Part shown: positions 13,509-20,626 of the stretch, piece after piece | Layout of the letters: each line of letters begins with the position of its first letter | Position numbering within the stretch: the first letter of the stretch is position 1 | Source of the DNA: an uncultured Armatimonadota bacterium | GTDB lineage: Bacteria; Armatimonadota; Fimbriimonadia; Fimbriimonadales; Fimbriimonadaceae | Direction of reading: 5' to 3' | Assembly (NCBI GenBank): GCA_903927025.1 | Contig: CAIYLG010000051.1 | Coordinates: 1-64,000 of the forward strand | Length of the DNA stretch: 64,000 nt | Program-made: the position numbers and the translations under genes | Notes under the pieces: generated by a model | The model's input: the letters and a program-made list of their open reading frames with translations, nothing else | Database searches by the model: none | Told to the model about the DNA's origin: nothing

Positions 13509-14546
13509 GTGTACAGAACACGCGTACATTCACCAAAAAGCACAAGACCAACCCGTGATGATGTGGCGAAGGCCGCAAACATTTCAGGGGCTACGGTTTC
13601 GCGTGTTCTAAGTGGAAGAACAGATATCTCCATCTCGGAGGAGGCGCGCGCCAAGGTTCTGGAGGCGGCGAAGAGTCTCGGCTATCAGCCCAATCGAATG
13701 GCTCGAGCGCTTGTGACCGGCCGCACGGGGTTAGTCGGCGTTTGGATGTCTCTTCATTACTCGCGGTACCGAAGCCAAGTTCTGGATCGGATGAGAGCCT
13801 TGCTGGGTCAAACCGAACTTGCAATGGCGGTCACGGACATTGACGAGGAGTACAGCTGGGACCATTCGTTTGACCGTGCGCTTCGCATGCCGGTTGAGGG
13901 GATCATCGCTTTTGATGCTGAGAAATCTGTAGAAGCATTCGCCAAGAATTCAGACCGACTCGCACCTAGGATGCCGTTTGTCAGCATGGGTGCCTACTGG
14001 GCCCATGAGAAGAGCTACGTAGGCATTGACCTGAGATCGGGCGCTGAAGCTGCTATGGACCACCTGCTCGGTACGGGTCGAAGGCATGTTGCATTCATGG
14101 CGCCTGCCAACTCCGGCCTTCTCCTGCGCGGAGCTCGTGCCGAATCCTATCAAGAAAGGATGCGGGATAGTGGTCTGCCGACTAGGGTGCTCGCCGCCGA
14201 GGGTGTTCGAATGGATTCGGTGATGCAGACGCTTTCTGACGCGATTGCAACCGATCCGAAATTGGACGCGATCCTCTGCATGAACGACGATCTCGCCATT
14301 TACACCGTGTTTGCCCTCCAGAAAATGGGCATTCGGCCCGGACTTGACATCGCGGTCGTCGGCTTTGACGGCATCGATGAAGCTGAACAGTGTCCGTGTC
14401 CAATCACAACCGTGAGCCAGCCAGCCTCGCAGATGTGCTCCCTCGCCATCGAATTCCTCAATGCGCAGATGGAGGACCCATCTGCCGAACCCCAACAGAT
14501 TGTTCTCCAGCCCACACTCGTCATTCGAAGTTCTTCGATGGCGTGA
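13509..14546 (+). CDS. LacI-family transcriptional regulator (cassette 1)
   Basis: The protein has 345 residues. Residues ~15-70 form the LacI DNA-binding head (RPTRDDVAKAANISGATVSRVLSGR, then YQPNRMARAL with the hinge helix and its minor-groove Leu). Residues ~75-340 form a periplasmic-binding-protein-like sensor domain, which usually binds a sugar or nucleoside. The GTG start at 13509 leaves a 12-residue extension ahead of the head; no Shine-Dalgarno sequence is present and the promoter implies a leaderless transcript. The next gene, 95 bases downstream, encodes a pseudopilin, and an alpha-galactosidase-like gene follows. A galactoside or related oligosaccharide is therefore a reasonable guess for the effector, by context only. 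Confidence 0.88.
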   Translation: MYRTRVHSPKSTRPTRDDVAKAANISGATVSRVLSGRTDISISEEARAKVLEAAKSLGYQPNRMARALVTGRTGLVGVWMSLHYSRYRSQVLDRMRALLGQTELAMAVTDIDEEYSWDHSFDRALRMPVEGIIAFDAEKSVEAFAKNSDRLAPRMPFVSMGAYWAHEKSYVGIDLRSGAEAAMDHLLGTGRRHVAFMAPANSGLLLRGARAESYQERMRDSGLPTRVLAAEGVRMDSVMQTLSDAIATDPKLDAILCMNDDLAIYTVFALQKMGIRPGLDIAVVGFDGIDEAEQCPCPITTVSQPASQMCSLAIEFLNAQMEDPSAEPQQIVLQPTLVIRSSSMA

Positions 14547-14641
14547 GCCTAAGCATCCCACTCTAATCTCCGTAAGAGTCTCTCATTCGCAATCATTCCG
14601 TCTCGGAGGACGGATTCCCGACCAAAGAGGGTCAGAAATTA

Positions 14642-15544
14642 ATGAATCGAAGAGCATTCACACTCATAGAGCTGCTTGTCGTCATCGCGATTATCGCGAT
14701 TCTCGCCGCTATCCTATTCCCCGTGTTCGCCCAGGCAAAGCAGGCCGCGAAGCGAACCCAAGACGTATCCAACCTCAAGAACCTCACTCTCGGCGTCATC
14801 ATGTACTCCGGGGACTACGATGACACCGCCTGCCCCATCATGGCTGGCTATTGGGACGATCCTCGGTATCAACTGATTCTCTGGAAGGATGAAGTCCTGC
14901 CGTACATCAAGAGCGGTGGTAAGCCGGTCAAGGCTGATGGATCGGCCTACTCTGGCACGTCTAATCAGAATGGTGGGATCTTCGCTTCTCCAACCTGGTC
15001 AGGCTCTTGGGCCGTATTGCAGGACGGCGAAGGGCCGAATCTGTACGGAGACACCACCACCCGATTCCCTCGATCCTACTCGCTGAACGCCAGTGCAGGA
15101 ATGAACGAAGGGATGGGCGGCACCAACGACTCCGGATTTTGGCCCTGGGTTGAAAACTGGTCCTGGAATCCGCTCAGCAACCGCGGCGGTTCTGGAATCA
15201 TGACGGCTCTTACCAATCCCGCAGGCACGATGATGATCAGCGGCACCGAAGACCCGTATCCCAACATCTACCCTCAGCAACTGTGCTACGGATGCAGCTA
15301 TAACGGTCAGCCAGCCAACTCCTGCGCAGACAATGATCCCAGTCTCACCGTTATTCGTAGCGTAGGCAACGCATTTATGAACATGAGCTTCTTTGATGGT
15401 CACGTGAAGAATGTGAATGGCTACAAGTCTCTGACGGATGACGTGTGGGACGAATTCCAGGCTCCTGGCTATAATCAGCCGGGCTGGCCAGGTCGGCAGC
15501 AGATTGCGTCGTATATGCAGGGTTACAAGGAGTGGAACCCCTAA
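14642..15544 (+). CDS. DUF1559-type pseudopilin (cassette 1)
   Basis: This 300-residue protein has a class III (type IV pilin-like) leader: MNRRA then [20 protein letters not shown] with Glu at +5. The residue before the cleavage point is Ala, where Gly is usual; prepilin peptidases tolerate Ala. The following [11 protein letters not shown] is typical of Armatimonadota pseudopilins. The globular part ends with the [11 protein letters not shown] motif characteristic of the DUF1559 / H-X9-DG family, although the His of the full motif is not evident. These proteins insert in the inner membrane and are thought to serve type II-like secretion or surface structures. An AGAGGG stretch 10 bases before the ATG is the likely ribosome site. 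It follows the LacI gene on the same strand. Confidence 0.85.
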
Positions 15545-15618: not shown

Positions 15619-17661
15619 ATGGTCACGACCGTTCTCTGCTTGCTTGCCTCCCAAGCGATTCACGTCCAGAAAGCTTCAGATCGCTTCATTTGCTCAAACG
15701 GACTGGTGAAGCTCACCATTCAAAAATCGGGTTCCTACTCTGTCGAGTGGCCGGGCGGCACGAGTCTCCGTCGCCTGTACAGTGAGGCGGTGATAGATGG
15801 AAAGTGGAACGTCAAGGTTTCCAACTATCCGGTTCACCTCTCTTCAGCTGGGGATCTGCGTAAGGTCTCTGATACGCTGGGGCGCGGAATTCAGCTCACC
15901 ATTCATCATCTTGCGCAGGGTGGGCCAGAACTGGAACAGCAGTTTTGGATCTATGAATCCAAACCGGAGGTCTTTGTCCGGGTTGATATCCGAAGCGACA
16001 AACCGATCTCCTCAAACAGCATTTCTCCAATCGTCGCCGATTCACCGGTGACGCTTCCCAAATCCTCATCCCTCCAGTCTCTGTTTGTCCCTTATGACAA
16101 TGACGGATATGCCCGCTTTCGATCAGATGCGTGGAAGGAGGCATCGCCCAGTTCGGAAGTTGGAGCTCTGTACGACGACTCATCGCGCAGCGGAATTGTC
16201 ATCGGCTCGATCGATCACGACACTTGGAAGTCTGGAGTCCGAATGGGAAATCGCGGCGGTCCATTAAATCAAGGGCTCCGCGCGTTTGCGGGGTTCACCA
16301 GCTCCTACACGCACGACTCTCAGCCTCACGGATCTTTATCCGGCAAAGAGATCCACTCCCCCCGGTTCTCGATTGGATGCTATGCAGACTGGCGAACGGG
16401 AATGGAGCGATATGGAGAACTGAATGGAAGGGTCTCCCCACCTGTGGACTGGAAGGGTGGGGTTCCGTTCGGGTGGAGTTCTTGGTCTGGTCACAAGACA
16501 CAGCTAAGCGCGCCTGATGCTGCCGCAGCAACGGATTTCATTAAATGGCAGGTTCCAAATCTTCGATCTGGCGGTACCGCCTTCATCAATCTCGATTCGT
16601 TTTGGGACAACCTCACTAAGGAGCAGAGACAGGAGTTTGTCCGCCACGCCCACTCTCTCGGGCTCAAAGCTGGAATCTACTACACCCCGTTTACGGCATG
16701 GGGCAAGCTTACGGATTCGGTTGACGGCACCAAAGACACGTACGACGATATTGTGCTCAAAGATGGGCATGGGAATCCATTGCCACGCCTAGATGGCGGT
16801 TACCCTATCGACCCAACACACCCTGCCGCTTTGGCTCGAATTGATCGGGAACTCGCCACTTTTGTCGCCGAAGGCTACGACTTCGTGAAGCTGGATTTTC
16901 TGACACACGGTGCCTTGGAAGGCGAGCACCACAACAGCCAGATTCACACGGGAACTCAGGCTTATTCCCTTGGGATGCACCACATTGTTGAGCGGCTGTC
17001 GCCTAAAGTCGCCGGCCGACCCATCTTTATCGCTCTCAGCATCGCTCCTGTGTTCCCATCCGGCCTGGGTCACAGTCGACGGATTTCCTGCGACATCTTT
17101 GCCAACATTGGAGCCACCGAGTACCTCCTCAACTCATCTGCCTACGGCTGGTGGGAAGGTGGGCGACTGTACGCCTTCACCGATGCGGACAGCAGTTCCG
17201 TCTATCAACCTCTTGGTGAGCCTGCTGTCTCAATGGAAGAGTCTTTCAGCCGCTTGACGGCCAGCGTAATAACTGGCGGCATCGCTATCGATGGTGACAA
17301 TCTGAAGGACTCCCAAGGTCGTGCCCGGGTAAAGCAAGTTTTCTCACACCCCGAGGTCCTTGACCTTGCACGCAAGGCGATCTCGTTTCGACCGGTCAAC
17401 GCTGATACAGGAAATCGAGCGGGCACCCTCTTTCAGTGGCTGGACACCCGTTCAGGCGATTGCTACTTAGCGGTCTTCAACGTTGAAAAGTCGGCCCAGC
17501 GAGTGGTTTACGTCCCTCCCTCAAGGATAGGGCTCCGCGCCGACGGCAGATGGGAAGTTCATGACCTCTGGACGGGCGAGAATAGCGGTTTTGCGGGAAC
17601 GCTGGCGCTAATTCTGCCACCGAAAACCTGCCGTCTCATAAGACTTCACCATCACCGGTGA
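15619..17661 (+). CDS. GH36/clan GH-D alpha-galactosidase-like glycoside hydrolase
   Basis: The 680-residue protein has an N-terminal beta-supersandwich (~20-250), a TIM barrel (~260-580) and a C-terminal beta-domain (~590-680), the GH36 arrangement. The predicted nucleophile is Asp426 in YDFVKLDFLTHG, and the predicted acid/base is Asp492 in SRRISCDIFANIG. PFGWSSWSGHK at the barrel start and GLKAGIYYTPF also fit. It probably hydrolyses alpha-galactosides; close relatives act on other alpha-linked sugars, so the exact substrate is open. The first ~15 residues (MVTTVLCLLASQAIHV) resemble a signal peptide lacking basic residues. It follows the LacI and pseudopilin genes on the same strand and may be controlled by that regulator. 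Confidence 0.8.
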   Translation: MVTTVLCLLASQAIHVQKASDRFICSNGLVKLTIQKSGSYSVEWPGGTSLRRLYSEAVIDGKWNVKVSNYPVHLSSAGDLRKVSDTLGRGIQLTIHHLAQGGPELEQQFWIYESKPEVFVRVDIRSDKPISSNSISPIVADSPVTLPKSSSLQSLFVPYDNDGYARFRSDAWKEASPSSEVGALYDDSSRSGIVIGSIDHDTWKSGVRMGNRGGPLNQGLRAFAGFTSSYTHDSQPHGSLSGKEIHSPRFSIGCYADWRTGMERYGELNGRVSPPVDWKGGVPFGWSSWSGHKTQLSAPDAAAATDFIKWQVPNLRSGGTAFINLDSFWDNLTKEQRQEFVRHAHSLGLKAGIYYTPFTAWGKLTDSVDGTKDTYDDIVLKDGHGNPLPRLDGGYPIDPTHPAALARIDRELATFVAEGYDFVKLDFLTHGALEGEHHNSQIHTGTQAYSLGMHHIVERLSPKVAGRPIFIALSIAPVFPSGLGHSRRISCDIFANIGATEYLLNSSAYGWWEGGRLYAFTDADSSSVYQPLGEPAVSMEESFSRLTASVITGGIAIDGDNLKDSQGRARVKQVFSHPEVLDLARKAISFRPVNADTGNRAGTLFQWLDTRSGDCYLAVFNVEKSAQRVVYVPPSRIGLRADGRWEVHDLWTGENSGFAGTLALILPPKTCRLIRLHHHR

Positions 17662-18569: not shown

Positions 18570-18636
18570 GAGAAAACCCTTCTACTTAGCCCATGTGGGC
18601 TCCAAGATATTTTTCCTAAAACCTCTTGTCGAATTT

Positions 18637-18674
18637 GATATATCGGTGTATCTTATTTGATATACCGTGATATC
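18637..18674 (+). promoter_or_regulatory. Two tandem 16-bp operator-like palindromes
   Basis: GATATATCGGTGTATC (18637-18652) and GATATACCGTGATATC (18659-18674) are two versions of one imperfect palindrome. Each has six of eight half-site positions matching, each is preceded by TTT, and their centres lie exactly 22 bp apart (two helical turns). They lie just upstream of the LacI gene at 18708. A TTGTCG/TATCTT promoter (18626-18631, 18649-18654) would be covered by them. Alternatively TAATCT (18696-18701), ending 6 bases before the GTG, would place the sites near -41 and -63. Confidence 0.55.
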
Positions 18675-18707
18675 ACCCCGTTTGGGGGCTCCCGGTAATC
18701 TGTTTCG

Positions 18708-19748
18708 GTGAAGAAACAAATGTCAGTGACGATGCGCGATGTTGCGGCGGAGGCAGGGGTGACACCCGTGGTCGTTTCGCGTGTCCTGCACAACAAGGCA
18801 CAGGCTGTGCGCGTCAGCGACAAGACTGCAGAGCGCGTCCGTGAAGCGGCAATTAAGCTCGGCTACAACTGCAACGTCTGGGCGCGCAACTTTCGGAGTC
18901 AGGAGACATTTACGATCGGCGTCCTTCACGGCGTCGGGTTCTCCCGACCCATGTTCGATAGAGGATCCAGATACTTTGCCTCCTTGATGGATGGCATCGT
19001 CGAAGGTGCCTTTCGCCACGGATACTCAGTCAATCTCTGTCCCCGGCTACTGGGTCAGCATCCCGAGTCTGCGATAAGCGACGGGCGCTTTGACGGTTTG
19101 GTTTGGTACAGCAACAACTACACTGCTGAGAACCGAGCGATGTTGCTGCAGTGCCCGGTGCCACTCGTGTTGATCCACGCCCCCGAACAGATGTTTGAGG
19201 GAAAGTTCTCCACCGTCATCTGCGACAACCACCAAGGTATCGGGCTGGCGATAGAGCACTTGGTGCACCTCGGACACCGACAGATTTCATTTATCTACGA
19301 AGGCGACCAGCCATCCCTAGAAAGCCAGATTCGAATTGAGGCGTTCAAAAGGCAGATGGCGGAGAGGTCACTTCCGGTTTCAGAGACAAGCATTCTTCGC
19401 ACCGGTTGGGGTGGAGAAGGGCTAGATGAGTACCTGTCGTCGCGACACCTTCACACCGCGATCATTGCGAACAATGAGTGGCTCGCCTCGGAGATCCTCC
19501 TTCGCGCACCGCGATTGGGCGTCCGAGTACCCGAGGACATTTCAGTGGTGGGCTTCGACTCCACCGCCTACTGCAACGAGCTTCAGCCAAAGCTCACCGC
19601 CATCTTTCAACCCCTTGTAGCTCTTGGAAATTCTGCCATCGACCTTTTGGTCGATACGATTAAGGCAGATGCTCCAACTCCAAGGCACCTCGTCATCCCG
19701 TGCGGGTTCGATATTCGAAACTCCACCCAGCCAATAAATAGCGAGTAA
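18708..19748 (+). CDS. LacI-family transcriptional regulator (cassette 2)
   Basis: A 346-residue LacI protein. The head occupies residues ~8-65 ([37 protein letters not shown]). The conserved hinge Leu after Ala-Arg is replaced by Asn-Phe here, so minor-groove contact may differ from classical members. The sensor domain follows ([10 protein letters not shown]...VVGFDSTAY). GTG 18708 is the start used; an in-frame ATG at 18720 is the alternative. The tandem palindromes upstream suggest autoregulation. The pseudopilin gene begins 5 bases after the stop, so regulator and pseudopilin share a transcript, unlike cassette 1 where 95 bases separate them. Confidence 0.87.
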
Positions 19749-19753
19749 TTCTT

Positions 19754-20626
19754 ATGAAAACGAGAGGATTTACCCTCATTGAACTCTTGGTCGTTATTGC
19801 AATCATTGCAATCCTAGCCGCCATCCTTTTCCCAGTCTTTGCTCAGGCAAAGGCAGCCGCCAAAGCTACCGCTGAGGTTTCCAATGTGAAACAGCTCACC
19901 TTGGCAAACATCATGTACACCAACGACTATGACGATGCATTTAGTTGGGGCATGGACGCCAACTGGCAGATCACTTGGGCCGTCAACATCATGCCGTATG
20001 TTAAAAACGGCAATATGACCCAGTTCGGCGCCGGCAGCGAGTCTGGCGAGTCAACGGCGAACGTTGGCATTTACCGTAGCCCGCTTGACAGCGGTTTTGC
20101 CCCAGGCACCCCTAACGCCTACAACTGGGGACTCGGCGTCCCAATGTCTTTCGGAGCCAACGCGCTAGAAACTCAATCTGCCGCTACTAATTGGCAGATG
20201 AAGCAGCTTGGTGTCTTCGCCCAAGAGTGGCAGTCGTGGATCAACCCGGTCACAGTTACCACCACCAGCATTTCGCATGTCGCAGAAACAGTTCTCATTG
20301 CTCCCAAGTACAACGGTGCAGCCGTGAAGTTCGGCAGCTACGGCGTTCTCAGTGGTTTCGCAGGAAACACATTCTTCAACTTTAACTGGTTCGACTGGGC
20401 TGCCCCTGGAGAAATCCCCAACGGCAACACCGCCGCATCCTATCCATGGAACAACAACACCGGAACCGCCTACCCAAGCTTAAACAATGGAGCGGTCGGT
20501 CTTACGAGTTCCAACAAGACGAATATTGGATTTGCAGATGGACACACCAAGGCGATGACCCCGGTCGCCACGAACCCAGATCCCGTGAACACGCCTCTCA
20601 GCAACATGTGGGATGCGACTCGATAG
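19754..20626 (+). CDS. DUF1559-type pseudopilin (cassette 2)
   Basis: The 290-residue protein has the canonical leader MKTRG then [20 protein letters not shown] (Gly at -1, Glu at +5) and [23 protein letters not shown]. The N-terminal third is closely similar to cassette 1, including the [11 protein letters not shown] segment, while the globular part is Asn/Gly/Trp-rich and diverged. FADGHTKAM near the C-terminus matches the family signature. It probably inserts in the inner membrane after prepilin peptidase cleavage and assembles into, or serves, a pseudopilus or surface structure. The gene is in tight operon order with the LacI gene upstream and a lipoprotein gene downstream. Confidence 0.85.

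Follow-up and report, generated by a model that had tools for sequence, protein, structure and literature searches.

LacI-family regulators bind mostly even palindromes with a central CG, according to the comparative survey of Ravcheev et al. (2014, PMC4052901), which also reports 72% autoregulation. Tandem sites were recorded there before about 20% of operons, and the spacing between sites peaked at 13, 22 and 32 bp, which was interpreted as cooperative binding. The closest described systems are RafR of Enterobacteriales and ScrR of Burkholderiales, both with tandem operators 21-22 bp apart. The locus presented here resembles them in its even CG-centred palindromes, in the expected placement of two dimers two turns apart and in an operon that would be local and autoregulated (PMC4052901). 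It differs from them in that the gene presumably co-transcribed with the regulator codes for a prepilin-like protein, not for a sugar enzyme or transporter, and in that 22-bp pairs are common in this clade but not obligatory (8 of 19 loci). The operator arrangement itself is of a well-known kind, as CG-centred even palindromes, autoregulation and 22- or 32-bp spacing have already been described for LacI regulators in the same survey; the less familiar part is a recurring lacI-prepilin cassette.

The window, i.e. the whole stretch of 64,000 nucleotides that we analysed, contains two palindromes between a GNAT gene (end 18569) and a lacI-family gene (Table 1). Both are imperfect, each with six of eight base pairs symmetric, and both have the even, CG-centred form of operators of LacI/GalR transcription factors; the spacing is 22 bp. 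The same region can be read as a 20-nt direct repeat at 18633 and 18655 (80% identity, spacing 22). The 150-bp gap (18570-18719) was shuffled with dinucleotides preserved, and a comparable pair, defined as two CG-centred 16-mers with a symmetry of at least 6/8, a mutual identity of at least 11/16 and a spacing of 17-45, appeared in none of the 20,000 shuffles. By the same criteria only one pair was found in the window, that at 18637-18674. The statistics of a single palindrome are weak (best CG-centred 18-mer in the 160 bp scanned, shuffle p = 0.033). The original prediction had described two 16-bp palindromes 22 bp apart before a LacI gene, and its coordinates were right. The pair is not a product of chance: the sites are real, and relatives have retained them together with the distance between them. 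We also noticed an inverted repeat, CCCC-GTTT-GGGG (18676-18688), which directly follows the downstream operator and would belong to the leader; a comparison with Rfam gave no matches in the window.

Table 1. Positions of the predicted regulatory elements and of the two genes that follow them (window coordinates).
Feature	Position	Strand	Details
Presumed -35 hexamer	18626-18631	+	TTGTCG, 4/6; inferred
Upstream operator	18637-18652 (18-mer form 18636-18653)	+	GATATATCGGTGTATC; PWM 23.0
Presumed -10 hexamer	18649-18654	+	TATCTT, 4/6; inferred; place of TATAAT in orthologues
Downstream operator	18659-18674 (18-mer form 18658-18675)	+	GATATACCGTGATATC; PWM 22.3
lacI-family gene	18720-19748	+	342 aa; PF00356, PF13377; orthologue alignment
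Prepilin-type gene	19754-20626	+	PF07963; ATG 5 nt after lacI stop

Absence of the motif before orthologous genes had been named in the original prediction as grounds for giving it up. We list the sites at 19 orthologous lacI loci, the window included (12 from the first genome set and seven more in the family); the motif proved to be conserved, 14 of the 19 being site-bearing. Tandem operators at exactly 22 bp were present in eight (the window, L004, L005, L007, L187, L181, L182 and L183, the last three belonging to one genus), a pair at 32 bp in one (L176), and a single site in five (L002, at -180, L006, L031, L172 and L174, the last two with weaker distal sites in addition). The L187 pair lies before a prepilin gene located upstream of the lacI gene L173. 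Five loci had no site within 200 bp (L003, with one at -242, L008, L009, L030 and L033). Because five orthologues lack a nearby site and five have only one, the 22-bp tandem cannot be obligatory. The 22-bp pairs are spread across several branches of a tree, calculated by a quick method from 18 orthologues (all but L033, whose gene is broken). On this tree P22 needs five changes against a mean of 5.9 in shuffles, values too close to speak for or against an ancestral pair.

Fifteen comparisons, made between six of the eight promoters with 22-bp pairs, gave a mean identity of 0.72 for site 1 and 0.71 for site 2, and of 0.29 upstream, 0.28 in the linker and 0.26 downstream. These values bear on the idea that the two sites are independent single operators which do not cooperate and whose 22-bp spacing is historical. 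Five orthologues do manage on one site, but the spacing is exactly 22 bp in eight loci while the linker and flanks vary freely, and we consider independent action rather unlikely. The motif is kept before orthologues, which supports the earlier suggestion that the palindromes are operators of the neighbouring LacI-family regulator on roughly the same helix face. Very probably, judging from these patterns, they are tandem operators of the repressor encoded downstream, which would shut off the lacI-prepilin operon.

The predicted repressor contains a LacI helix-turn-helix (HTH) and a periplasmic-binding-protein-like ligand domain (PF00356, PF13377 and PF00532, all above the cut-off). Its nearest solved structures are CcpA and PurR, with which it has in common the fold, the HTH, the hinge and an operator with a central CG; in contrast to these two, its control looks local and not global. 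It also differs from CcpA in the hinge leucine, the usual LacI/GalR feature that inserts at the central CG: Phe58 is aligned to the CcpA Leu, and Phe occupies this position in most orthologues, with the central CG retained. Since a leucine was reported at the hinge position in 82% of domains (Camas et al., 2010, PMC2978694), Phe58 does not exclude LacI/GalR membership. The CcpA alignment reaches residue 337 of 342 and the protein has no C-terminal tetramerisation helix (the LacI-type loop former); cooperation, if it occurs, would thus have to involve adjacent dimers. The orthologue alignment begins at ATG 18720 (MSVTMRDVA), which is most likely the translation start; GTG 18708, the start assumed earlier, is probably wrong.

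The presumed promoter hexamers (Table 1) are 17 bp apart, and 3 nt separate TATCTT from the downstream operator in its 18-mer form. Compared with the consensus this promoter is weak (8/12), and it was not among the output of an automatic consensus promoter scan of the window. A perfect TATAAT occurs 3-10 nt before an operator in five of the 14 site-bearing promoters examined (3 nt in L006 and L031, 5 nt in L172, 6 nt in L174 and 10 nt in L176). In all eight paired promoters the downstream site is preceded, at a distance of 3-5 nt, by a -10-like hexamer that matches at 4/6-5/6; no such hexamer was found before the single site of L002. The position of the sites relative to the presumed -10 element in the window is that seen in the orthologues, and transcription is presumed to start near 18660-18662. 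In L015, L016 and L017 the lacI ATG comes about 10 nt after the end of a TATGAT hexamer, and transcripts from such a promoter would have no leader or almost none.

The original prediction had offered two layouts. One had the sites blocking a TTGTCG/TATCTT promoter, and it is favoured by the TATAAT found 3-10 nt before an operator in five orthologues and by TATCTT, which is placed likewise. The other had them activating the operon, with TAATCT (18696-18701) as the -10 element, a start at about 18708 and a regulator bound at -41 and -63 that would recruit polymerase. This arithmetic is correct if TAATCT is the -10, and some LacI regulators do activate, FruR/Cra being an example given in PMC4052901; the layout also depends on GTG 18708, however, which is not the conserved start, and it does not agree with an operator following TATAAT so closely in the five orthologues. 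Activation is thus most unlikely. The sites would cover both the promoter and the presumed start, which argues for autorepression rather than activation. In such a mechanism two repressor dimers would occupy the two predicted operators and, given the distance of two helical turns from centre to centre, probably help each other. The dimer on the upstream site, at about -16 from the presumed start, would cover the -10 element and the spacer between -35 and -10, and that on the downstream site, at about +6, the presumed start itself, resulting in steric repression. The repressor would shut off the lacI-prepilin operon, its own gene included, until a ligand, probably a sugar, frees it from the operators.

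A genome search for further copies of the motif, proposed together with the original prediction, returned the window pair as the only exact matches: the pattern common to both sites, TTGATAYAYCGNNRTATC, has two matches with no mismatch in the 5.25-Mb genome, both in this pair, and a single match with one mismatch, which is on contig C47 and precedes a LacI paralogue. With a PWM built from orthologue sites only (the window's own sites were left out), the window sites had the top scores among the 81 genomic strings scored (up to three mismatches); the next best match was the C47 lacI pair (18.1), the sites of which are 24 bp apart. Among 21 further sites inspected, a set that left out C35:54005 (15.0), C59:48669 (14.9) and C52:127136 (13.5), only the C47 pair and C56:25771 (15.0) were intergenic with a PWM score above 13. 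C56:25771 has a BNR/sortilin-like gene on one side and a GH26-CBM35 gene on the other. C61:4049 (14.4) falls within an ORF. On the basis of the sites inspected, a wider regulon in this genome was rejected.

The similar 24-bp pair of the C47 lacI makes cross-binding possible, and the window pair might be bound by another LacI paralogue such as the C47 protein (40% identity), or by both proteins. The window sites, however, agree better than the C47 pair with the PWM derived from orthologues of the adjacent lacI, and in other genomes, too, the motif accompanies the orthologous gene, which leaves binding by a paralogue improbable.

The surroundings of sites in relatives were inspected in 18 stretches picked by eye. 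In genus g46 a 22-bp pair has a divergent GH42 gene on one side and a GH1-lacI-prepilin operon on the other, which suggests that the ligand of the g46 proteins may be a beta-galactoside or beta-glucoside. In the window's own genome neither the GH1 gene nor the two best of five GH42 matches has an operator site, so this link is not directly transferable. In other relatives, genes for a GH5 cellulase, an acetylesterase, a GH13 and a halogenase-like protein have similar sites ahead of them, where paralogues could bind instead. Three copies of TGATACAACGACATATCG (L138:2039, 2103 and 2164) were noticed in the interval that separates a tryptophan-halogenase-like gene from a divergent prepilin gene.

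As the prepilin-type ATG follows the lacI stop so closely (Table 1), the operator pair presumably controls both genes, and the operon would consist of lacI and the prepilin-like gene. A structure model of the prepilin had a mean pLDDT of 59.7, too poor for a fold search. A prepilin-type start was found within 450 bp downstream in 31 of 61 LacI genes examined, and in the window's own genome this applies to 8 of 17 LacI genes if the start is allowed to lie up to about 1.3 kb from the HTH on the same strand. When the presence of an operator was set against that of a prepilin gene in the operon, the 19 loci gave 14/0 against 0/5 (Fisher p = 8.6e-5), a value that is only indicative, with a definition set post hoc and loci that are related; a stricter post hoc cut (9,4/0,6) gave p = 0.011. 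The window holds a second lacI and prepilin-type pair (13509-15544), followed by a Melibiase_C-domain gene (15619-17661), and no CG-centred palindrome of equal strictness was found before that lacI. A 30-codon stub of a prepilin N-terminus was observed upstream of lacI in L007 (935-1024, minus strand).

No description of a LacI-prepilin cassette was found among the listed literature on Armatimonadota LacI regulators, prepilins and DUF1559. As a tentative reading, Armatimonadota might carry repeated cassettes of a LacI repressor and a prepilin-like protein, each with its own operator type, in which a ligand, perhaps a sugar, would switch on one dedicated pilin-like surface protein for polysaccharide capture. 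The present results yield an operator and spacing rule that can be tested in this regulator clade, whose phylum has been little studied. They also connect the clade with a prepilin-like gene and, in relatives, with GH1/GH42 genes. If the cassettes do work in this way, sugar sensing would be linked to the choice of pilin-like proteins.
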